Part shown: positions 366-30,867 of the stretch, one piece after another
Layout of the letters: every line of letters starts with the position of its first letter
Numbering within the stretch: the first letter of the stretch is position 1
Origin: Flavobacterium sp.
GTDB taxonomy: Bacteria > Bacteroidota > Bacteroidia > Flavobacteriales > Flavobacteriaceae
Direction: 5' to 3'
NCBI RefSeq assembly: GCF_013822155.1
Contig: NZ_PNJW01000012.1
Location: 1-64,000 of the forward strand
DNA length: 64,000 bases
Position numbers and translations under genes: made by a program
The notes under the pieces: generated by a model
What the model saw: the letters and a program-made list of their open reading frames with translations, nothing else
What the model was told of the DNA's origin: nothing
Database searches by the model: none

Positions 366-3300
366 ATGATGCCATCAAGCCCAATAAATAACTTTCAACT
401 ATTCAAATCTGTTTTTGCAGGAAGAGAAGATGTGTTTGCAATTCGATGGGAAAAAGGCGGTAAGAGTGGCTATATGCCTGCCTATTTTTATGATCCATAT
501 AGGTATAAAGCTCATAAAATGAATGGAGGAACTTTTCAAAATTATGCTGATAAAGAATATTTACCTTTCACTGAAAAAGAAATTGAAAAACACCTTAACG
601 GCGAACAACATATTGGAATTTATCCTTTGCTTAAAGATAATACTTCATGGTTTATTGTGGCAGATTTTGATAAAGTCGAGTGGGTTGATGATTGCAAAAA
701 GTTTATAACTGCTTGTAATGAAAAAGGAATTTCCGCTTATTTAGAACGTTCACGTTCGGGTAAAGGCGGACATGTTTGGATATTTTTTCAACAACCGTAT
801 CCAGCTGCAAAAAGTAGAAAAATTTTCATTTCGATTTTAGTGCAAATAGGCATTTTTTCTTTATTTGACAAAAGTTCCAGTTTTGACAGAATGTTTCCAA
901 ATCAAGATTTTCTTTCTGGAAAAGGATTTGGAAATTTAATAGCACTTCCGCTCTATAAGAAATCATTTGAACAAGGAAACAGCTGTTTTATTGATGTATT
1001 TAGCCTAGAACCAATTTCAAATCAATGGCATTTTATAGAGAATATTCAAAGAATTTCGACAGTACAACTTGATGAATTATATCAAATTCATAATATACAG
1101 CAAAATATTCCAGTTTCGATTGTATCAAAAATATACAATGAAAAGCTCACAATAAAATTGGGGAATGTTGTAAAAATTAATCGCAATGCCATTTCAATCC
1201 CATTAATTAATTTTCTAAAAGAAGAATTGAATTTTCTGAATACAGAATTTTTAATAAAAAAGAAGATGGGTAAAAATACTTTTGGAACAGAGCGATATTT
1301 CAAACTGGTCGAAGAAACAGAAAACGAAGTAATCATTCCGAAGGGTTTTATTGGAAAGATAATTCGTTTTTGCAGAGATAACAAAATTGAATATGATTTC
1401 AAAGATGAAAGGAAAAAGCTAAAAGAGATTGTTTTCTTATTCAATGCACAACTACAAAAACATCAGCAATTAGTTATTGATACAATTGCAAAGAAAGATT
1501 TAGGAGTGGTTGTTGCACCGCCGGGTTCAGGAAAAACGATCATTGGTCTAAAAATTATTGCAGACAAAAAACAACCAGCATTAATTATCACACATCGAAA
1601 ACAAATTGCTGACCAATGGATGGAACGAATTGTAACTTTTCTTGGAATCCCAAAAAATGAGATTGGAAAAATTGGTCAAGGAAAAACCAAAATTGGTAAG
1701 CAAATTACTGTTGCAATGATTCAAAGTCTATCAAAAGAATTGGATAAACCTAATGAAGAAAAACTTAGGAATGCTTTTGGGACGATTATTTTGGACGAAT
1801 GCCATCACATACCAGCGGAAACATTCAGGAATACAATTTCAAAACTACAAACTTTTTATTTATATGGATTGACAGCAACTCCCTTCCGAAAATATAATGA
1901 CGGTAAATTGATTTTTATACATTTGGGTGAAGTGATCTCCGAAATAAAATCAAACGAAATAAGCAAGGCTAAAAAACCAAAAATCATTATTAGAAATACT
2001 GAACTTGAGGTGCCATTCAATTCAAAAACCGACAAATTTGAAACGTTATCAAAAATACTAGTTCACGATTCTACTAGGAACAAAACAATTCATGAAGATG
2101 TCATTAATGAATTGAAATCAGACAAAAAAGTAATTATAATTACTGAACGCAAAGAACATATTGACTCACTTTATCAATATTTAAAACAGTCTTATGAAGT
2201 AGTTACCTTGAGTGGAGAAGATTCTGAGAGCAGTAAAAACTCTAAATGGAAATTATTAAAAGAAGGAAGCTATCAAGTAGTCATAACCACTGGACAATTC
2301 TTTGGCGAAGGAACCGATTTACAAGATGCCAATTGTCTTTTTCTAATTTATCCATTTTCTTTTGAAGGAAAACTGATTCAATACATTGGCAGAGTGCAAC
2401 GTTCAGAAATAACGCCAACTATTTATGATTATCGTGATATCAAGATTGATTATTTGAATAAAATGTTTCTGAAAAGAAATGTCTATTACAGAAAAATTGA
2501 CGAACAGGCAACTTTGTTTGATGAACCTCAAGAGGAAATTAGTGTTCCAAAAAACAATTTTAGTATCCATAAAAAAGTAAAGATTCCATTTGAAAAATTG
2601 GAATTTCGTTACGGAAGTATCTCTTTTAAATATGAAGTTTCAGAAATGAAAACCGAGCTTGAATTTGATATTGAAAATTTTGAAATAAGACCCGAATTTG
2701 AAGTTTTAAAAGCTTATTTCTCCAAAACACTCAAAATAAAAAACATCACAGTTACTATTATCGCTGAATTCGAAGAAGGAAAACTAATTTCGCAATTGGC
2801 TTTATCCAATGAGATAAAAAAGATAACTAGAGAATTGATTGAAAGCGTAAAATTCACCTTTATAACCAAGGCTTTCTTGGCAAAATCAAATGCAATTGGC
2901 AAAGAAAATTTACTAGATATAAATCAATTGCAAAATGAAAATAATGTCAAATTATATGATTCGGGAGATGAATTATTAAATGATTTTTTACAGAATCAAA
3001 ATTACAAACACCAAAAGCATTTACAATATTTAGCTGAACATCACGAAAGAACTATTCTTAAAATTCGATTTGTATTGAATCCATTTTCATTTGTTTTTCT
3101 TCTAGCAGGAAAAACAGGATTTCATATTGTTTTAGAAACCTTAAATACGGAAGAAGCAACCTATATTTGGCATTTTGATAATGACAAAAAATCACTTCCT
3201 GAAAAATTAAAAAAAGTGGATAGCTCGCTAAATACCATTAGAAATGACGGAAGACAATCTTTCACAGAAAATCCTCCCGATAATTTCAGTAGAATACTTC

Positions 3301-3368
3301 ACGATTATTCACCTGAGAGAAAAGGTTTTGTAATTTGGAAAGATTTACTAGAGGAAAGAATTACTTGA
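366..3368 (+). CDS. Archaeo-eukaryotic primase-SF2 helicase fusion, TOTE conflict-system-like
   Basis: A 1000-residue protein. The N-terminal ~270 residues look like an archaeo-eukaryotic primase: ADFD (about residues 99-102) supplies the two metal-binding aspartates, SGKGGHVW (about 131-138) the sxH-type motif, and SFDRMFPNQD with GNLIALPL the third acidic motif. A superfamily 2 helicase follows from about residue 370: PPGSGKT (Walker A), DECHH (about 476), TATPF (about 503), GEGTDLQDA (motif V) and QYIGRVQR (motif VI). The last ~250 residues are unassigned. This architecture is known from the TOTE conflict-system family, thought to act on invading nucleic acid. ATG ATG at 366/369 gives two possible starts. 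No separate nuclease is visible downstream, where a hairpin array begins. The domain calls are strong; a defence role is inferred. Confidence 0.82.
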   Translation: MMPSSPINNFQLFKSVFAGREDVFAIRWEKGGKSGYMPAYFYDPYRYKAHKMNGGTFQNYADKEYLPFTEKEIEKHLNGEQHIGIYPLLKDNTSWFIVADFDKVEWVDDCKKFITACNEKGISAYLERSRSGKGGHVWIFFQQPYPAAKSRKIFISILVQIGIFSLFDKSSSFDRMFPNQDFLSGKGFGNLIALPLYKKSFEQGNSCFIDVFSLEPISNQWHFIENIQRISTVQLDELYQIHNIQQNIPVSIVSKIYNEKLTIKLGNVVKINRNAISIPLINFLKEELNFLNTEFLIKKKMGKNTFGTERYFKLVEETENEVIIPKGFIGKIIRFCRDNKIEYDFKDERKKLKEIVFLFNAQLQKHQQLVIDTIAKKDLGVVVAPPGSGKTIIGLKIIADKKQPALIITHRKQIADQWMERIVTFLGIPKNEIGKIGQGKTKIGKQITVAMIQSLSKELDKPNEEKLRNAFGTIILDECHHIPAETFRNTISKLQTFYLYGLTATPFRKYNDGKLIFIHLGEVISEIKSNEISKAKKPKIIIRNTELEVPFNSKTDKFETLSKILVHDSTRNKTIHEDVINELKSDKKVIIITERKEHIDSLYQYLKQSYEVVTLSGEDSESSKNSKWKLLKEGSYQVVITTGQFFGEGTDLQDANCLFLIYPFSFEGKLIQYIGRVQRSEITPTIYDYRDIKIDYLNKMFLKRNVYYRKIDEQATLFDEPQEEISVPKNNFSIHKKVKIPFEKLEFRYGSISFKYEVSEMKTELEFDIENFEIRPEFEVLKAYFSKTLKIKNITVTIIAEFEEGKLISQLALSNEIKKITRELIESVKFTFITKAFLAKSNAIGKENLLDINQLQNENNVKLYDSGDELLNDFLQNQNYKHQKHLQYLAEHHERTILKIRFVLNPFSFVFLLAGKTGFHIVLETLNTEEATYIWHFDNDKKSLPEKLKKVDSSLNTIRNDGRQSFTENPPDNFSRILHDYSPERKGFVIWKDLLEERIT

Positions 3369-3608
3369 TTAGGAAATAAAACGAATAATTATAACATTTT
3401 TCAAGGTATTCGCATTATCCTATATCTCATTTATCTGCATAAAAATTGCTCCTTTTCCAAGTATTCGTAACATCGATGCTACTGTTTGCTTCTTAGCCCG
3501 AATAGAGCTCAGTCGAAGTACTAATTTAATTTCTAATTACAATAGTGCTTTTCGTTTAGTGGTAGTATACAGTTTGAGTCCTCCGTTCCCCACCGCTTCC
3601 CACCGCAT

Positions 3609-3679
3609 AAAAGTTTTTGTATGCCCCGGAACGACCCTGCCAAATAAGAAAAAGTATCGAAGGGGCAACAAAAACTTTT
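3609..3679. repeat. Hairpin 1 of the array
   Basis: AAAAGTTTTTGTATGCCCC pairs with GGGGCAACAAAAACTTTT with a one-base bulge. The loop is about 34 bases. It is the first clear member of the array. Confidence 0.75.
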
Positions 3680-3685
3680 CCCAAA

Positions 3686-3780
3686 GCTTCTTTACATAAT
3701 GTGGCATTATAGGGCATTAAAAAGAGTGAATAATTTTTTTGGTTTTTTCAATGCCCTATAATAACATTATGTAAAAAAGC
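3686..3780. repeat. Hairpin 2 of the array (about 35-bp stem)
   Basis: The arm reading ACATAATGTGGCATTATAGG pairs with the later CCCTATAATAACATTATGT, extending on both sides to GCTTC/GAAGC-like ends. Of the three substitutions seen, the C.A and A.C mismatches on the + strand would be G.U wobbles on the minus strand. Confidence 0.8.
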
Positions 3781-3799
3781 CGCTCACCCCACGCTCGAA

Positions 3800-3900
3800 A
3801 GCCCCGCTCCAGCCACACATTTTTTTCGCTTACAGCCTGGATTGTCATCCTGAGCCTGCCGAAGGACAGCTTCAAAAAACACGTGGCTTCGCGGGGCTTA
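3800..3900. repeat. Hairpin 3 of the array, enclosing a common dispersed repeat
   Basis: AGCCCCGC...AGCCACACATTTTTT pairs with AAAAAACACGTGGCTTCGCGGGGCT. Three adjacent mismatches (A.C, C.A, A.C) are all minus-strand wobbles. The loop contains TCATCCTGAGCCTGCCGAAGGAC, a short dispersed repeat common in Bacteroidota genomes, apparently inserted in the loop. Confidence 0.75.
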
Positions 3901-3989
3901 CATCGTGTTTTCATAAGAACATTTATCCTTTGCTAAAAAGCCTTATTTCATAGGAAATTCTATCATTGGTCTTTATCAGCTAACCGCTT

Positions 3990-4288
3990 AAATCGGTAGT
4001 ATTTGCATTATATTTTGAAGTTGCCATCCATCTCCGAATCTCGTATGTTTGAATCCATTTTTCAAAACACATCTAGGCAACATCAAAATATAAAATCATC
4101 CGCAAGAGTATCGTTTTTATTTGCTCACAGAAGTAGTGGTAATTGCTTAAAGGTTTGCTGATGCCACAATACTTTAAACAACTTTTAAACTCATAAACCC
4201 TTAAACTCTTAAACAACTTCATGACATCAGCAAACCTTACAAGCAATCAGAAAATAAAGTACTAAGCAAATAAAAACGATACCCTTGC
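3990..4288. repeat. Repeat unit 1: loop-type stem plus nested long stem
   Basis: After GGTAGTATTTG, TATTTTGAAGTTGCC (4011-4025) pairs with GGCAACATCAAAATA (4076-4090) around a 50-base loop that starts ATCCATCTCCG. The second stem is GCAAGAGTATCGTTTTTATT (from 4102) with its partner ending at 4288. Nested inside it, ATTGCTTAAAGGTTTGCTGATG (about 4142-4163) pairs with 4225-4246. This unit is the most diverged of the three and the only one with the nested stem. Confidence 0.8.
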
Positions 4289-4325
4289 TCTTCCTCCGAA
4301 ACACATTCTTCGTTATACTTGAAAA

Positions 4326-4524
4326 AAGCGGAAGTATTTGCATTGTTTTTTGAAGGTGCCACCCATCTCCGCAGCCACTGAGCACTAATAACTGTCCACT
4401 GAACACTTTCAGGCACCCTCAAAAATCAAACAGTGCAGCAAGAGTTTAAAATTTTGGTGCCGGATAAAAAGCATGTCTATTGATTTTAGTTTTTTTATCC
4501 GTCCCCAAAATTTAAAACCCTTGC
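4326..4524. repeat. Repeat unit 2
   Basis: The lead-in AGCGGAAGTATTTG is followed by TTTTTGAAGGTGCC (4347-4360), which pairs with GGCACCCTCAAAAA (4412-4425) around a 51-base loop starting ACCCATCTCCG. The second stem pairs 4438-4470 with 4492-4524 over 33 bases with few mismatches. The ends are GCAAGAG and CCCTTGC. Confidence 0.85.
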
Positions 4525-4591
4525 AAGACGACCCCAACTCCGATTCAAAAGATAAAGTCTCCGAAAGAAAATAAACTGCTCGCTTGTAAAA

Positions 4592-4791
4592 AAAGCGGAA
4601 GTATTTGAATTGCTTTTTGAAGGTGCCACCCATCTCCGTACCAACTGAACACTATTTTCTGACCACTGAACACTTTCAGGCACCCTCAAAAATCAAAACG
4701 TCAGTAAGAGTTTCAAATTTCGGTTCTGGATAAAAAGCAAGTCTTTTTTATTTCGTTTTTTTTATCCAGCCCCAAAATTTGAAACCCTTAC
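4592..4791. repeat. Repeat unit 3
   Basis: Same plan as unit 2. The lead-in is AGCGGAAGTATTTG. TTTTTGAAGGTGCC (4614-4627) pairs with GGCACCCTCAAAAA (4679-4692) around a 51-base loop starting ACCCATCTCCG. The second stem pairs 4704-4735 with 4760-4791. The stem sequences differ from unit 2 while pairing is kept. Confidence 0.85.
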
Positions 4792-4902
4792 ATCAAAACC
4801 CCGTCTCCGATTGAAAAAAAATCGCATTCCATCGCAAAAGTGTGCTTGAGATTCAAAAAAAATAAAATAAAAAAAAGGTAGCAAAGTTAAGTTCCGGGTT
4901 AT

Positions 4903-5050
4903 CAAAAAAGCAAGTTCAAGCCCTCCGGGTTTTTTAAAAAATCTCCACCACCCATACATTTTCATAAAAACCACCCATCAACCCACAAAATCCGACTTCC
5001 ATAGGACGTATCGGGGTGGTAGTATTTTTTAAAAAAAACTTGCTTTTTTG
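4903..5050. repeat. Terminal hairpin of the array
   Basis: CAAAAAAGCAAGTT (4903-4916) pairs perfectly with AACTTGCTTTTTTG (5037-5050). Inside it, TTTTTTAAAAAATCTCCACC plus ACCC pairs with GGGGTGGTAGTATTTTTTAA. The interior contains ACCACCCAT twice, echoing the unit-loop motif. Gene 5156-5578 begins about 105 bases further on. Confidence 0.75.
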
Positions 5051-5155
5051 AAACCCTCCACTTGACGTCAGTGCTTTCTTTTTTTTCTTTTTTTTCTTTT
5101 GAAAAAATTTTATGGGGGTTGTGTGCCTTATTCAGAAATCTTTAAACGCCAGGAT

Positions 5156-5578
5156 ATGATTAATTTTAAATTGAAACACCACAAAAGCGGAATGAGTTAC
5201 TCAAAACCTCATTTTTTCATCCTTAACAAAGGATTAAACACCGGAAAACCTTTGTCCGAACCCTGTCCAAACTGTTTTGTGATACAATTCGGCAGCACTG
5301 AAGACTCCGAAAACATGGAATCCATCTGTAAAAGCCTATGGAGAGTGAAGTTCTGGCACCAATTTTTAATAGGTTCCGTCATTCCCTACATAAGAATCAA
5401 CGATTTTTCCAAAAACCTCACCCAAAAATCCAATGAAATGATGCTCGACTTCGAGCTTCACAAGAAAAACATTGCAGCCCTCAAACTCCTAGAGCAAAAA
5501 GAAAAGCAATTTCACGACAACATCAACCTCATAAACGATATGCGTCGAGTAATCTTGTACCGCTACTGCAAACGTTAA
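5156..5578 (+). CDS. Conserved Bacteroidota hypothetical protein (possibly DUF6943)
   Basis: A 140-residue basic protein. I chose ATG 5156 because the track's TTG at 5099 lies in a T-rich leader and the recognisable part starts with MINFKLKHH. It contains KPHFFILNKGLNTGKPLSEPC then CPNCFVIQF (a CPxC pair), a Trp-rich middle (SLWRVKFWHQFLIGS) and a charged helical C-terminus ending RVILYRYCKR. From memory it resembles DUF6943, a family of unknown function in Flavobacteriia; this was not checked. It lies directly after the hairpin array and ends in its own terminator, so the array could be its leader or partner element. No function is claimed. Confidence 0.7.
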   Translation: MINFKLKHHKSGMSYSKPHFFILNKGLNTGKPLSEPCPNCFVIQFGSTEDSENMESICKSLWRVKFWHQFLIGSVIPYIRINDFSKNLTQKSNEMMLDFELHKKNIAALKLLEQKEKQFHDNINLINDMRRVILYRYCKR

Positions 5579-5580
5579 TT

Positions 5581-5611
5581 AAAAACTGGTCCACTCGGAC
5601 TAGTTTTTTTT
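5581..5611 (+). terminator. Rho-independent terminator
   Basis: AAAACTGGTCC-ACTC-GGACTAGTTTT followed by a T run, immediately after the stop codon at 5578. Confidence 0.85.
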
Positions 5612-5710
5612 GCACCTTAAACGCTACATATTGACTACATAAAAGCAATATAAATGCTCCTCTTAAATAAATCGAAGAAAAGCAAAGCATTTGACATGTA
5701 TTGACTGCTA

Positions 5711-5742
5711 AAAACAAAAAAAGCTCCGAAATTCGGAGCTTT
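5711..5742 (-). terminator. Terminator of the minus-strand phage-like cluster
   Basis: AAAGCTCCGAAATTCGGAGCTTT with a T-rich tail on the minus strand, 20 bases beyond the stop of the gene ending at 5764. Confidence 0.85.
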
Positions 5743-5763
5743 AAAATGGATTTTTTAGGGTTT

Positions 5764-6006
5764 TTATTCCTTTGGTTCCGGAGTTTCTTCAGATTTCACA
5801 GCCGTTTGTGAAACTACTGAAATAATACTTCCGCCCAGGATTAAATATCCGGCTGCCGAAACCAATCCAACCGGTAAAGCTACCGGAGAAGCAAGAACTA
5901 CTCCGCCCACAGATGCCATTGCAATGCCAACAGTACGAAGAATTCTAAACCATTTTGGGGTTGGAGCCAATGCTCTTTCTACTACGTTCAAATTATTGTT
6001 TTTCAT
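5764..6006 (-). CDS. Small two-helix membrane protein, possibly holin-like
   Basis: An 80-residue protein with two hydrophobic segments: VGIAMASVGGVVLASPVALPV (about residues 26-46) and LVSAAGYLILGGSIISVVSQ (about 48-67), then an acidic tail SEETPEPKE. Size, topology and position next to another small membrane protein and a DUF5675-type gene suggest a phage lysis-type module. No holin family motif is seen, so that is inference. It overlaps the upstream gene by 14 bases, which implies co-translation. Confidence 0.65.
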   Translation of the reverse strand: MKNNNLNVVERALAPTPKWFRILRTVGIAMASVGGVVLASPVALPVGLVSAAGYLILGGSIISVVSQTAVKSEETPEPKE

Positions 6007-6259
6007 AATCTTGATTTTTAAATAGTGTTAATTCAATTTTTGATACTCGTTTTTCTAAAAATTCTACTTTTTGGTTCAGTAAGTCATTACCACTTTTGAA
6101 CTCCGTTTTGATGATTAAAGCCATCGTTTTTACCTCTACCAAATCTTTCTCCATGCTCTTGAAATCAGTGTGTAATTGCTTGATAAAATAAGCCACAATC
6201 GAAAGTAACAAGGTTATGAGTGTTCCAAAAAGTGTTGCGATGATGTTTATATTATCCAT
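5993..6259 (-). CDS. Small membrane-anchored coiled-coil protein (XhlA-like topology)
   Basis: An 88-residue protein. One N-terminal transmembrane helix (IATLFGTLITLLLSIVAYF, residues about 7-25) is followed by a long charged helix with heptad-like spacing (EFKSGNDLLNQKVEFLEKRVSKIEL). This resembles phage hemolysin/holin accessory proteins in layout only; the helix order is reversed compared with classical XhlA. It lies in a tight minus-strand cluster. Confidence 0.62.
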   Translation of the reverse strand: MDNINIIATLFGTLITLLLSIVAYFIKQLHTDFKSMEKDLVEVKTMALIIKTEFKSGNDLLNQKVEFLEKRVSKIELTLFKNQDYEKQ

Positions 6260-6271
6260 GATTAGGACTTT

Positions 6272-6724
6272 TTAGAATTGAAAATTGTTTTCAATGGTTA
6301 ACTTATTATTTTCAATCTTAGCCAATGCAACTAACTTCGGATAGATCATTTTGTAAGCTGCAATACTTTGAGTGACTTGGTAATTTCCATCAAGAAATTG
6401 GAAACCAAAACCACAAAGAGGACACCCGGCAGTATCTTTAATGGTATTACCAACATGGATGTACACAAAATTGAAGTTTGGTAAACCAACAATTTCAATC
6501 ATTCCTTCGTGAAGCTTTGTAAATACTCTTTTATAGTCTACATTTTTTGCTCCGTGAGTGTTCAGTTTCAAACCAAAAACACCCGTTGGAATGGCTGTCT
6601 GTGAGGGTATTTTCACTTCTCGTATTTTATCCTCTAACAGATATCATTGAAATATTCCGTTGATATACAATTGGCTCAATGTGCTTTCTTTGCCCTGGGC
6701 TACTCTTATTATTTTGCTTTCCAT
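6272..6724 (-). pseudogene. DUF5675-family phage protein interrupted by an in-frame TGA
   Basis: The ORF track starts at a GTG at 6616, but the same frame continues upstream through one TGA (6644-6646) to an ATG at 6722-6724. The full reading is MESKIIRVAQGKESTLSQLY..GIFQ-stop-YLLEDKIREVKIPSQTAIPTG. DUF5675 proteins have a conserved C(Y/F)TLED at this point, so TGA replaces a cysteine codon. The downstream half keeps the family's VYIHVGNTIKDTAGCPLCG core and a C-terminal AYKMIYPKL. A single nonsense mutation (TGC or TGT to TGA) explains it best; translation restart at the GTG would give a 114-residue fragment. Family role: phage- and element-borne, function uncertain. Confidence 0.75.
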
Positions 6725-6748
6725 TGTTTTGATTGATTTGAGATTAAT

Positions 6749-6781
6749 TAAAAAATCCCTCACTTTTGATGAGGGATTTTT
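6749..6781 (-). terminator. Bidirectional-looking terminator
   Basis: AAAAATCCCTCA-CTTTTGA-TGAGGGATTTTT between the DUF5675 pseudogene and the gene ending at 6793. On the minus strand it is followed by a T run and would end the 6793-7596 transcript. Confidence 0.8.
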
Positions 6782-6792
6782 GGAAGGTTTTT

Positions 6793-7596
6793 CTAAAAAG
6801 CATCCTCTACTTTTAAGCAGTTACCACTTGCAAACAAGTAGTAATTTCCACCAACTTGTTGGTAGAACTCAATTCCAATACATTGCAACACGGTTGTGTT
6901 TGCAGTTGGAATAGCTCCGTTTGGCAGAGTTGCAGTAATAGTTGTCAATGGAACCGGAGCGAACAAATCAAGGTAACCACTATATTGAATATCGTTTACC
7001 TCATTCAATTCTGCATCCATTGGATCATAAGTGTTTGTGGTAGCATTGTACTCAAAATCACTTACCACTGATAACGAATGAATCAAACGGAAATGTGTTG
7101 CTCCGGATGGTGCATTTACCAAATTCAATGGATTGAATCCAGGAACAACAAAATCTCCTGTTTCTCTGTCAACTTCATGAGTTACGGAGTAGGGGGCATT
7201 GAAAATCCCATTGAAAGAAGTGTTTTTGTCAAACTCAAATCCTTTCAAATAACTACGTTGAGTAGTGATTTCAATTTTACGGTAACCTCTGGCTTCCGTT
7301 TGATCTTCCAGGTTGATTTTCTTCATAATTGAAGTTAATCTTCCGGTAACTTGGCTATCCGCCATTTGTTTCATTACTTGAGACAATCCTGTTCGAACTG
7401 ATTTCCCGGCTTTGGCACAAGCACCAAATTCGTTCATGTTCTCACGTGTTCTCTCAAATTCTGGTGCTGATAATACTTGATCACCAGTTGGTCCGCCTAC
7501 CATGCCTGCAAAGTAGCCTTCCTGTCCTTTAATTTTAAAGTGTCGAACATCACCAAGAGTTCCGATGTACTTTAAATTGCCTTTCTGTCTTGCCAT
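6793..7596 (-). CDS. Conserved Bacteroidota protein (MARQKGN...GTLGD type), function unknown
   Basis: A 267-residue protein. The ORF track begins at 7782, but the conserved start is MARQKGNLKYIGTLGDVRHFK, so I place the start at ATG 7594-7596; the extra 62 residues overlap the divergent promoter and nuclease gene. The N-terminal part (GPTGDQVLSAPEFERTREN, then EFGACAKAGKSVRTGL) is a pattern I recognise from many Bacteroidota hypothetical proteins, often found in tandem or beside phage-like genes. The rest is beta-rich with no catalytic motif. A structural or surface role is possible but unproven. Confidence 0.72.
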   Translation of the reverse strand: MARQKGNLKYIGTLGDVRHFKIKGQEGYFAGMVGGPTGDQVLSAPEFERTRENMNEFGACAKAGKSVRTGLSQVMKQMADSQVTGRLTSIMKKINLEDQTEARGYRKIEITTQRSYLKGFEFDKNTSFNGIFNAPYSVTHEVDRETGDFVVPGFNPLNLVNAPSGATHFRLIHSLSVVSDFEYNATTNTYDPMDAELNEVNDIQYSGYLDLFAPVPLTTITATLPNGAIPTANTTVLQCIGIEFYQQVGGNYYLFASGNCLKVEDAF

Positions 7597-7631
7597 TTTT
7601 TTAAGTTTTAATGGGTTAATAAATAGATTAA

Positions 7632-7663
7632 ATTGATAAGACAAATTTCTATCATTATCTTTG
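7632..7663 (+). promoter_or_regulatory. Bacteroidota-type promoter for the nuclease gene
   Basis: ATTG, 20 bases, then TATCTTTG, matching the TTTG/TAnnTTTG consensus with one mismatch in the -33 box. It lies 31 bases before ATG 7694 in the divergent intergenic region. Confidence 0.5.
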
Positions 7664-7693
7664 AATATCAACAACTTAAAATATTGAAAATCA

Positions 7694-8185
7694 ATGCAAT
7701 ACGAAGCAAAAGCACCGTTTATAGTGGAAACCCATTGGCAAATTGAAGAAGTGCTTGATGGAGATAGCATAATCATTTGCAATCAATTCACTCAATTGAA
7801 AAAAGAAATCCGACTGTATGGTTTAGATGCACCGGAAGTAAAGATTAATCGAAAGATGATGGAAGACGAAGAGAAAAGCAGTTTACCGGCTGAATTACTG
7901 CTCCAATTTGGTTTACAGTCCTTGCAGTTCGTTTTGTCGGTTGCACCGCCTAAAACGACTGTAACCATCATTACAGAACAGGAGAATTATTATGACTATT
8001 GGAACAGGCAATTAGGCTATGTAATTCTTCCAGGAGGCGAATGTTTAAATGACTTACTATTGATCAATGGGTATGCAAAAGCAACACATCAATATTTTTG
8101 TAGTAAATTAGCACACTATCAAATATTAAATCGTGAAGCTCAGCTCAATGAATTAGGTATTTATAGTCAAGTAAAAAGGTTCTGA
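7694..8185 (+). CDS. Staphylococcal-nuclease-like (thermonuclease) protein
   Basis: A 163-residue protein with the SNase fold signature: EVLDGDSI (about residues 18-25), IRLYGLDAPE (about 38-47), a central basic/aromatic strand NYYDYWNRQLGYVILPGG, and LNDLLLINGYAKA near the C-terminus. SNases cut DNA and RNA in a Ca2+-dependent way. The first motif supplies the metal-binding aspartate, and LDAPE occupies the canonical position where the catalytic arginine lies nearby. No signal peptide is evident, so it may act inside the cell, unlike secreted homologues. It is divergent from the MARQKGN gene, with which it probably forms an accessory cluster. Confidence 0.8.
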   Translation: MQYEAKAPFIVETHWQIEEVLDGDSIIICNQFTQLKKEIRLYGLDAPEVKINRKMMEDEEKSSLPAELLLQFGLQSLQFVLSVAPPKTTVTIITEQENYYDYWNRQLGYVILPGGECLNDLLLINGYAKATHQYFCSKLAHYQILNREAQLNELGIYSQVKRF

Positions 8186-8312
8186 TTTGTTGTACTTATG
8201 TTGTACCTAGTGAACCCAAAAGAGTAACAATATCAATAAATACAAACCCTAACAGGCGTAAGGAGTATATATACAAGTTAGCAGTCATTGTTAGACGAAA
8301 CGCAAAATTAAG

Positions 8313-28957: not shown

Positions 28958-29353
28958 GGGGTCGACCGGTTTTGACAGCGGGTGGAACTAAACGGTAAGC
29001 ACGTCGAGCATTGGACATTTGGCTCGTAAATATCAAGGTTCACACTTTATAAACGGCGAAAATAATTACGCTTTAGCTGCTTAATCTGAATTATAGTAAG
29101 ATTTGCCTAGTTCCTACCAGGTAGGAAAGCTAGATTCACCTCGAAAGCCTTGGTTTGTGGCGTTTGATTTAGGTGAACCGAAAAAATAAACCTAGAAACG
29201 GTAAAGCTTTAAATCCGTTTTGACAATTATAAAGCTAAGCAAGAAGTGGCTGCCTTTGGCCTTGCTTTTTGTCGAAAATTCAATCGGAGGATAAACGCGT
29301 AGAAAGCTCTTTGGTTGCTTGTTTGGACGAGAGTTCGATTCTCTCCGACTCCA
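28958..29353 (+). ncRNA. ssrA: Transfer-messenger RNA (tmRNA)
   Basis: The 5' end GGGGTCGACCGGTTTTGACAG and 3' end TTCGATTCTCTCCGACTCC-A form the tRNA-like half: acceptor pairs GGGGTCG/CGACTCC with one G.U, and a T arm with GTTCGATTC. The tag frame at 29055-29084 reads GENNYALAA then stop, the tag usual for Flavobacteriia. tmRNA rescues stalled ribosomes with SmpB. CCA is not encoded (ACTG follows), so it must be added. The 3' end is also the insertion point of the conjugative element, which left tmRNA complete. Confidence 0.95.
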
Positions 29354-30867
29354 CTGGGAGGGATGATTGAAGAATCATCCCTCTTTTTTTTGTAAAAAAG
29401 ACAACCTTTTTCACTCATTTTCAAGTGATTATGAGAAAAAATATTTAACATGGTGGGTGTTCGATAGGTACCCTCCTGATAGTATAGGTTGCTGTCGAAC
29501 ACCAAGTTTACAAACTCTCTTTTTTGTAAAATATCAGCTCTTAAATACACTGAACGAATGTCAGTTAGCAATTCTAAGTTTTTCTCTAAAATAGTAAATG
29601 CGTTAGTTTCATTTTTGCTAAGTCTTTCTATTGCTGCTTTTGCAGATAAGATAGAACTATTGAAATTTGAATGCCACCTTTCATAAGTTTCTTTAGATAT
29701 TTCGTTATTAATCCATTTCTCCTCGAGTGAGAACATCTTCTCTTGGGTATCATCTACTAGCTTCTTCTTTTCAATTATTTTTTGTTTATTAGACTTGATA
29801 TGGTCTTCCAATGTATTTTTACATTTTGTTTTAACTTCCAACAACATATTTTCTGGTAAACTCATTAATTCGCAAACACTTAAAAATTGATTGTGTGCTT
29901 TGATAGCACTAATGTTATTGTGTTTTGGTACTTTACATTTATAGTAGTAAAAATACTTTCCCGATTTACCTCTAGAGGCTGCACCAGTAAGCAAATTACC
30001 GCAGTGACATTTGAGTATGCCCCTTAACGGAATTTCTTCATCTAATACTGACCTTGTCTTGTCTGGTTTTTTCATTTTGTTTTGCACCATTTGCCATGTT
30101 GTAATATCTATAATTGGCTCATGTATAGCGGGAAAAATTCCTCCTGGTAAATCTTTATATCCCTGAACTTTTAGCATGCCAACATACACAGGATTTAATA
30201 AAACCCTTTCAATAGCAGTGTTACCTTTTGTTTTAAATCCTAATTGATATGCTTTTTCTTTTATTTTATATAAAGGCACGTCTTTTAGATATGCATCATA
30301 TATAAAACTAATAATCTTCGCTTCTTTTTCTTCAACAACTAATTTTCTATCTTTCTGCTCTCCTACTTTAATGTATCCAAATGGCGGTCTTGTGCCAATG
30401 TAACGTCCCTCCTTCGCTCTAGCCGTATAAAGTCCCCCTCTAATCTTTATACTCCTATTGATATTATCTTCTTCAGCAAGTAATAATTGTAATCCCGCTC
30501 TAAAAAAACTACCGGGAGTATCATAATCAAATGTTATACCCTCAGTTACACTAACCACCTGAATACTATATTTCCTTTGTAACATTTTAACCATACTCAT
30601 TGCCTCTCCCGCATCACGACTAAATCTATCTAATTGATCCACCAACAGATAATCAACTACTTTATAATGCTTAGAAATAAACTCTTGCAACTTTATAAAA
30701 TCTGGTCTATCAAAGGTCTTAGCACTCTTACCTCTATCAATAAAAGTATCAACTAATTTGACATCGTTAAATTTAAGCCATTGATCTGTATAAAGCTCTT
30801 GCCTTTCAATAGAACCATTACTTTGACCTAATTGGCTAAATCTTAAATATCTAATCGCTCTTTTCAT
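29227..30867 (-). CDS. Large serine recombinase (integrase) of the ICE
   Basis: A 546-residue protein. Resolvase domain: catalytic Ser11 in YLRFSQ, the DQLDRFSRD motif, and RAGLQLLLAEEDN. The Recombinase domain follows (GYIKVGEQ..., VLLNPVYVGMLK), then a zinc ribbon CHCGNLLTGAASRGKSGKYFYYYKC and a coiled-coil region rich in K/E. It should integrate and excise the element by serine-nucleophile strand exchange. The last 41 codons lie antisense to the 3' end of tmRNA and just before that cross the tmRNA terminator, so the C-terminus is set by the attL junction. Its start overlaps the small ORF upstream. Confidence 0.88.
   Translation of the reverse strand: MKRAIRYLRFSQLGQSNGSIERQELYTDQWLKFNDVKLVDTFIDRGKSAKTFDRPDFIKLQEFISKHYKVVDYLLVDQLDRFSRDAGEAMSMVKMLQRKYSIQVVSVTEGITFDYDTPGSFFRAGLQLLLAEEDNINRSIKIRGGLYTARAKEGRYIGTRPPFGYIKVGEQKDRKLVVEEKEAKIISFIYDAYLKDVPLYKIKEKAYQLGFKTKGNTAIERVLLNPVYVGMLKVQGYKDLPGGIFPAIHEPIIDITTWQMVQNKMKKPDKTRSVLDEEIPLRGILKCHCGNLLTGAASRGKSGKYFYYYKCKVPKHNNISAIKAHNQFLSVCELMSLPENMLLEVKTKCKNTLEDHIKSNKQKIIEKKKLVDDTQEKMFSLEEKWINNEISKETYERWHSNFNSSILSAKAAIERLSKNETNAFTILEKNLELLTDIRSVYLRADILQKREFVNLVFDSNLYYQEGTYRTPTMLNIFSHNHLKMSEKGCLFYKKKRDDSSIIPPSGVGENRTLVQTSNQRAFYAFILRLNFRQKARPKAATSCLAL
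29322..29353. other. Candidate attL core at the 3' end of ssrA
   Basis: The recombinase gene reads straight into this segment, and everything to the right is conjugative-element DNA. A repeat of part of ssrA's 3' end is expected at the right end of the element, outside the window. The exact core cannot be set from one side. Confidence 0.45.
29358..29391 (+). terminator. Terminator after tmRNA
   Basis: GAGGGATGATTGAAGAATCATCCCTC followed by eight T residues, five bases beyond the tmRNA 3' end. It lies on the element side of the junction and inside the recombinase reading frame on the other strand. Confidence 0.88.

Follow-up and report, generated by a model that had tools for sequence, protein, structure and literature searches.

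A conserved one-strand hairpin array and a putative single-strand DNA promoter at the edge of a Flavobacterium defence island

Introduction

We describe a non-coding array of long hairpins in a Flavobacterium genome of 3.4 Mb, analysed in a window of 64,000 nucleotides that is the start of its contig. Comparison with related genomes supports the conclusion that the array is a conserved structure folded on one DNA strand, the minus strand, and the region is best explained as the non-coding border of an integrative island that carries defence genes. On balance, we favour reading the hairpin nearest to the DUF6943 gene, P1, as an Frpo/ssi-like promoter active on single-stranded DNA, fitted to the Bacteroidota sigma factor and positioned at the edge of a defence island with the hairpin array appended.

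Bacteroidota are dominant in gut, soils and seas, and conjugative elements in this phylum spread resistance and defence genes. Single-strand promoters have already been described in enterobacterial plasmids (PMC9849209, PMC11541004): the Frpo hairpins are such promoters in the leading regions of F and ColIb-P9 (PMC9849209, PMC11541004), they lie upstream of ssb on F (PMC9849209; PMC11541004), and Frpo-like hairpins sit in anti-defence islands (PMC11541004). Early expression in F and ColIb-P9 recipients has been reported for the genes ssb, psiB and ardA (PMC9849209). The main text of PMC11541004 makes no mention of Bacteroidota, and we found no report of single-strand promoters in Bacteroidota in the literature searched.

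A conserved hairpin array folded on the minus strand

Twelve of the 14 strong inverted repeats in the whole 64 kb window are located at 3.6-5.1 kb. We observed 11 in the array region itself; among 100 dinucleotide shuffles of that region, 99 contained none and one contained a single repeat. A greedy, non-overlapping set comprised 10 stems with arms of 17-35 nt, in keeping with a preliminary description of this DNA that had counted at least ten stems with arms of 14-37 bases. The stretch lies between a TOTE primase-helicase gene (366-3368) and a DUF6943 gene (5156-5578) and has no long open reading frame inside it. The same description had placed the array at 3575-5050; the array is real, but that end is too early, since the outermost stem extends to ~5103. 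Some of the array units are duplicated, at a spacing of 267 bp and with 91% identity. Apart from P1, the hairpins are as follows.

3606-3683, minus strand: hairpin at the distal end of the array; next to it, at ~3572, lies the edge past which copies are no longer homologous
3684-3782, minus strand: array hairpin, 3686-3702/3764-3780 plus 3706-3723/3745-3762 (inverted repeats; helix 23)
3797-3902, minus strand: array hairpin with a conserved GAAG / TGGAG asymmetry (helices 19 and 20; compensatory change in 20 of 29 pairs)
4008-4093, minus strand: array hairpin, 4008-4025/4076-4093 (inverted repeats; helix 16 of the consensus fold)
4102-4288, minus strand: nested hairpin pair, 4102-4125/4265-4288 around 4150-4163/4225-4238 (inverted repeats; helices 14 and 15; compensatory change at 25 pairs)
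4342-4432, minus strand: array hairpin with variable loop, second unit (direct repeat D1)
4438-4524, minus strand: array hairpin with 33-nt arms, second unit (inverted repeat I1; conserved G.U pair, alignment columns 580-664, GU in 9 of 9)
4609-4699, minus strand: array hairpin with variable loop, GGGTGCC...GGCACC (direct repeat D1; fold)
4704-4791, minus strand: array hairpin with 33-nt arms, GTAAGGGTTT...AAACTCTTAC (inverted repeat I2; fold)

BLAST searches over 301 genomes of the family identified complete array homologues; many more genomes gave short matches, which fell on the DUF6943-proximal hairpin. We aligned ten arrays from Flavobacterium genomes and derived a minus-strand consensus fold in which 94.8% of cells pair. 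Covariation was very strong: 86 of 244 pairs have both-sided changes, and the score of 0.274, against 0.114 for shuffled alignments, was reached by none of 500 shuffles. When the structure was slid by one column, the score dropped to about 0.07. The minus strand also folds better, both for the consensus (-225.8 versus -164.7 kcal/mol on the plus strand) and for the array itself (-512 versus -418 kcal/mol). These results support the earlier proposal of a fold maintained on the minus strand, in a transcript or in single-stranded DNA, for which a lack of covariation had been named as the refuting outcome.

That proposal had rested on mismatches within stems, said to be often A.C and never G.T on the plus strand. 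The excess is there, with nine A.C and two G.T mismatches in the window's own stems, so that the word "never" was slightly wrong. Across 27 related loci the two kinds are likewise unequal (142 A.C and 42 G.T on the plus strand). The plus strand of the array is C-rich, with 87 C.T and 43 A.G mismatches in the same 27 loci; hence, composition accounts for roughly a factor of two of the wobble bias. With a strand-neutral, GU-free consensus fold of the ten arrays, single-step departures from Watson-Crick pairing numbered 27 for minus-strand G.T and 10 for A.C (binomial p=0.008), and a fold derived on the plus strand still gave 28:16 for the minus strand; the composition-controlled test was by itself not significant (p=0.13). 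We conclude that the wobble bias is real, smaller than it appears, and partly compositional.

No credible Rfam family matched the array at gathering or relaxed thresholds, in agreement with the earlier statement that no known RNA class fits. The only models below threshold were spurious miRNA models, which we discarded as chance resemblances, and the Rfam covariance models of the GOLLD, ROOL, HEARO and OLE RNAs gave no match at gathering score. By DNA similarity, the whole array had no match in phage and plasmid collections (72,556 plasmids), and sigma-70 and terminator scans stayed at chance level. Like GOLLD and ROOL RNAs, the array is a large, many-helix, conserved structure on mobile elements (PMC12286853), and it shares with the transcript between the inverted repeats of the PLE satellite its structured, non-coding character and its setting in a satellite island of the defence type (PMC7567579). 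It differs from GOLLD and ROOL in having no Rfam match, phage or tRNA island, and from PLE in that PLE is a Vibrio satellite with a measured transcript (PMC7567579), whereas the array is known here from sequence alone.

We also rejected an integron attC array: RYYYAAC / GTTRRRY core sites are not conserved, the GTT of the candidate core varies (columns 1365-1377), and no integron integrase lies beside the array. The candidate core reads GAGCGTTGGG in some copies and GAGCGTGGGG in the window. On the minus strand of array alignment A3, motifs like GAGCGTTGGG recur near columns 1365-1377 and 1659-1670, at the outer edge of the array and also between its hairpins. Another contig of the same genome carries a second, partial copy of the outer end of the array with 90% identity (G000:C91:430-491).

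Promoter elements within the P1 hairpin

By far the most conserved hairpin of the array is P1, which consists of an A/T-tract base stem, a covarying upper stem and a variable apical loop, and is flanked by an A-tract and a T-tract.

4852-5103, minus strand: P1, the DUF6943-proximal hairpin, core 4869-5084 (24-sequence alignment A4; motif scan)
4882-4889, minus strand: -7 promoter element TAACTTTG (TAnnTTTG) on P1 arm B (pattern match, alignment)
4911-4913, minus strand: -33 TTG, 21 nt upstream of the -7 element (TTG-N21-TAACTTTG)
4912-4949, minus strand: P1 core motif of 38 nt, GGTGGAGATTTT-N5-AAACCCGNAGGGCTTGANCTT, including a CCC-GNA-GGG mini-hairpin at 4921-4929 (exact matches)
5156-5578, plus strand: DUF6943 (PF22105), 140 aa, A-side gene of P1 (Pfam 3.8e-51; AlphaFold pLDDT 91)

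Among the 24 copies in alignment A4, 21 of 33 pairs show compensatory change, a level seen in 0 of 500 shuffles. The fold is stronger on the minus strand, which is the template strand of the downstream gene. For P1 alone, G.T versus A.C events (12:8) were not significant, and a GU-free fold of 62 P1 sequences yielded no structure.

The Bacteroidota promoter consensus is TTG / TAnnTTTG. On arm B, most P1 copies have the arrangement TTG-N21/22-TAnnTTTG, and the T-tract then follows. The promoter pattern around the -7 element has one match in 64 kb, with 0.03 expected, and the TAnnTTT[GA] of P1 is the only one conserved in the array alignment on either strand. In 84 folded P1 sequences, pairing in the -7 region was about 0.5, compared with 0.7-0.8 in the flanks (Wilcoxon p=8e-7); in ssb-type and some ArdA-type copies the element is paired, not bubbled.

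We searched 85,462 species genomes for the 38-nt core motif and found at least 117 exact matches; those listed include Flavobacterium, Lutibacter, Tenacibaculum, Paludibacter, Algoriphagus, Labilibaculum and others. The motif is single-copy in its own genome, and a reversed-pattern control gave 0 matches. P1 queries against plasmids matched only Bacteroidota plasmids, with no enterobacterial plasmid sequence among the matches. Two contigs with P1 and DUF6943 are labelled as Bifidobacterium breve and Rickettsiales MAGs (L138, L198); these are probably mis-binned Bacteroidota sequence. Two near-identical P1 copies with DUF6266 (L050:4730-4924 and L051:5366-5560) have different single cargo genes past the T-tract; these genes, a DUF1508 gene and a 345-aa HNH-like open reading frame, follow the T-tract directly, as if genes had been swapped in. 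In a further locus, a gene for a 289-aa protein of unassigned family lies between P1 and the remaining array (L092:6252-7121). Two ArdA-linked copies (L243:4001-4232 and L237:5990-6220) have almost identical flanks and the same TAnnTTTG, and their hairpin arms differ, a natural arm swap that preserves the architecture.

Strand placement of the promoter and genes downstream of P1

A single-strand promoter model predicts that the promoter lies on the template strand and that there is none on the coding strand. We looked for TAnnTTTG between gene and hairpin for 58 distinct P1-linked genes, using as controls 147 genes with at least 200 nt upstream. On the coding strand the element was depleted (2 of 58 P1-linked genes versus 44 of 147 controls; p=1e-5), and on the template strand it was enriched (34 of 58 versus 40 of 147; p=4e-5). 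The Bacteroidales copies of P1 gave 0 of 7 for the coding strand and 6 of 7 for the template strand.

Of 80 loci found by the motif, 59 have DUF6943 as the first gene on the A side, a count that includes near relatives, and this gene always points away from P1, never the reverse. A further 17 of the 80 have no recognised module gene nearby, and five of these are of the ssb type. These five loci, all from Flavobacterium, have P1 upstream of a gene that Pfam assigns to SSB, with DUF932 following; an integrase adjoins wherever the B side is readable, and one locus (L131) also has DUF1281_C and PRTRC genes after DUF932. In a Phocaeicola conjugative element, a P1 homologue is located upstream of ArdA (PF07275, 2e-33). 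The annotated order in a Parabacteroides distasonis conjugative element is integrase, ORF6N, P1, ArdA and tra genes, and other Bacteroidales records, from conjugative elements, have P1 at the head of operons that include PcfK and PcfJ. The template strand of ArdA would be the transferred strand in one annotated ICE, provided that the relaxase side enters last. The array proper accompanies DUF6943-type islands and is absent from the examined elements of the ssb or ardA type.

An ordinary 5' UTR structure would put the wobbles on the coding strand, but P1 folds better on the template strand. Since one hairpin both carries the promoter and sits upstream of an oriented gene, single-stranded DNA is favoured over RNA as the form in which P1 folds. 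The conservation, covariation and orientation of P1, the placement of its promoter and its gene context are all direct observations.

DUF6943 itself was not mentioned in any of the literature searched. The best Foldseek matches to its model are mostly type I S subunits, and they are weak (E 0.009-0.09, TM below 0.4); PF22105 likewise weakly matches HsdS open reading frames (2.7e-6 to 9e-4). Of 297 Bacteroidota genomes sampled, 16 have DUF6943 matches, one of them four; the weakest three matches are in large open reading frames, and the two of these that were examined are HsdS. Based on the slot that it has in common with ArdA and SSB, together with the weak HsdS resemblance, we suggest that DUF6943 may have an anti-restriction-like role.

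A model for P1 on single-stranded DNA

We read P1 as a probable Bacteroidota counterpart of Frpo/ssi because it has the same anatomy, a template-strand promoter inside a hairpin with the coding strand depleted. The element would become single-stranded after conjugative or mobilised transfer, and its minus strand would fold. In the folded P1, the 3' arm (B) would present TTG-N21-TAnnTTTG and the 5' arm (A) would serve as template, such that RNA polymerase could start at the hairpin base and, with the second strand still to be made, transcribe the A-side gene, which is DUF6943 here and ssb or ardA elsewhere. Once the DNA is double-stranded, the promoter would face the opposite way, into the array, thus leaving the A-side gene without its promoter. 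In this way P1 would turn on protective genes during the arrival of mobile DNA in a recipient. Both the transcription of P1 from single-stranded DNA and the entry of the element in that form are what we infer from sequence; entry is an assumption in particular because the parts of the DUF6943 islands that were read contain neither a relaxase nor transfer genes. The remaining hairpins, folded on the same strand, probably also act on single-stranded DNA. They may provide further single-stranded structure (origin, protection, priming) or, in double-stranded DNA, belong to a leftward RNA from arm B.

P1 resembles Frpo/ssi in being a long stem-loop on the template strand of the downstream gene that presents both promoter boxes, and in lying upstream of the leading-region genes ssb and ardA. 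Unlike Frpo/ssi, which have TTGACA / TATAAT, it has the boxes TTG / TAnnTTTG, and no enterobacterial plasmid matched it in sequence; its downstream gene is DUF6943 in this genome, island-type copies continue into a hairpin array of 1.3 kb, and the promoter activity of P1 is a prediction from sequence. The sso of ICEBs1 and rolling-circle plasmids is, as proposed for P1, folded single-stranded DNA of a mobile element that host RNA polymerase recognises (PMC4595007). The sso primes the second strand, whereas P1 is located upstream of an oriented gene and has a full promoter; second-strand priming by P1 is nonetheless possible.

If the single-strand reading of P1 is correct, P1 marks the leading region of Bacteroidota elements and names the genes needed first on entry, DUF6943 and its neighbours become candidate counter-defence proteins, and one 38-nt motif gives a simple handle for finding further such elements. 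A wider version, which we offer tentatively as a possibility, is that P1 typifies a class of single-strand DNA promoters, spread through the mobile elements of the phylum and built on the TTG/TAnnTTTG consensus, that its main partner DUF6943 acts in anti-restriction or establishment and has so far gone unrecognised as such, and that defence islands add a minus-strand structure of a new kind, 1.3 kb long, acting on entering single-stranded DNA.

Alternative explanations

Arm B is also a good double-strand promoter, and the cargo genes of L050 and L051 begin right after it; arm B may thus simply drive the genes on the B side. A related explanation, rather unlikely in our judgement, is that arm B is an ordinary double-strand promoter for a large leftward non-coding RNA of 1.1-1.4 kb, ornate in the style of GOLLD and ROOL. 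The TTG-N21-TAnnTTTG does face the array, which covaries strongly, has its G.U pairs on the would-be RNA strand and folds better on the minus strand (-512 versus -418 kcal/mol), and arm B lies directly upstream of genes in L050 and L051. However, P1 covaries on the same strand and is located upstream of that promoter, hence outside the RNA, and elements of the ssb or ardA kind keep P1 without the array. Variant B and L092 have opposite-sense genes between P1 and the remaining array, and the presence in some copies of genes directly after P1, in either sense, argues against one fixed RNA, for which our scan found no clear terminator.

We consider it improbable that the region works as a double-strand element, whether a palindromic operator, a cruciform, a bidirectional terminator or a recombination site for cargo swapping. 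Homology between islands stops at the array edge, the cargo differs just past the P1 T-tract in L050 and L051, and A- and T-tracts flank P1, all of which would suit such an element. A strand-neutral role, however, would neither favour G.T on one strand nor strip TAnnTTTG from the coding strand only, attC core sites vary between copies, and no integron integrase lies next to the array. Functionless remains of nested MITE-like palindromes, as hairpins inside hairpins and unit duplications might suggest, are very improbable, being largely refuted by covariation (86 compensated pairs), by invariant unpaired motifs and by the conservation of P1 across the phylum.

The surrounding island

The array belongs to a block shared with another Flavobacterium genome (G508) that holds the array, DUF6943, small membrane proteins, a DUF5675 protein, a protein beginning MARQKG and an SNase.

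366-3368, plus strand: TOTE-type primase-helicase gene, a defence-type neighbour (Pfam AEP-TOTE 6e-84)
3572-8289, no strand assigned: shared mobile block, homologous to Flavobacterium G508 (L094) and unrelated outside this span
5764-6616, minus strand: two small membrane-like proteins (5764-6006, 5993-6259) and a DUF5675 protein (6272-6616)
6793-7605, minus strand: MARQKG... protein, 270 aa, beta-rich
7694-8185, plus strand: SNase-like nuclease of the module (Pfam SNase 1.2e-9)

The gene order of the module is widely kept in relatives, and its distribution is patchy. Defence genes on the array side vary by copy: TOTE, AbiE, HNH, Piwi plus helicase, type IIG, type I restriction and DISARM. Islands seen in full also contain RteC, an ATPase and a tyrosine integrase. 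The earlier statement that no reverse transcriptase or transposase lies beside the array is true locally; in relatives the tyrosine integrase lies at the module's far end. Around DUF6943, the island sequence that was read showed neither relaxase nor transfer genes. We discarded a phage or lysis reading of the DUF5675 and membrane proteins, for which PHROGs gave no function, and the fold of the MARQKG protein, a generic beta-sandwich, had no informative match.

Two genomes (G122 and G155) have 26 kb in common at 99.9% or more, ending at a core that resembles the 3' end of tRNA-Ser, which also occurs in G135 and G111. This attachment core, CAAATCCCTCTTTCTCCGC, is located at right island ends (L034:7864, L035:1192, L044:8050), where ARAGORN detected no whole tRNA. 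Within the window, a tmRNA gene with the tag GENNYALAA occupies 28958-29356.
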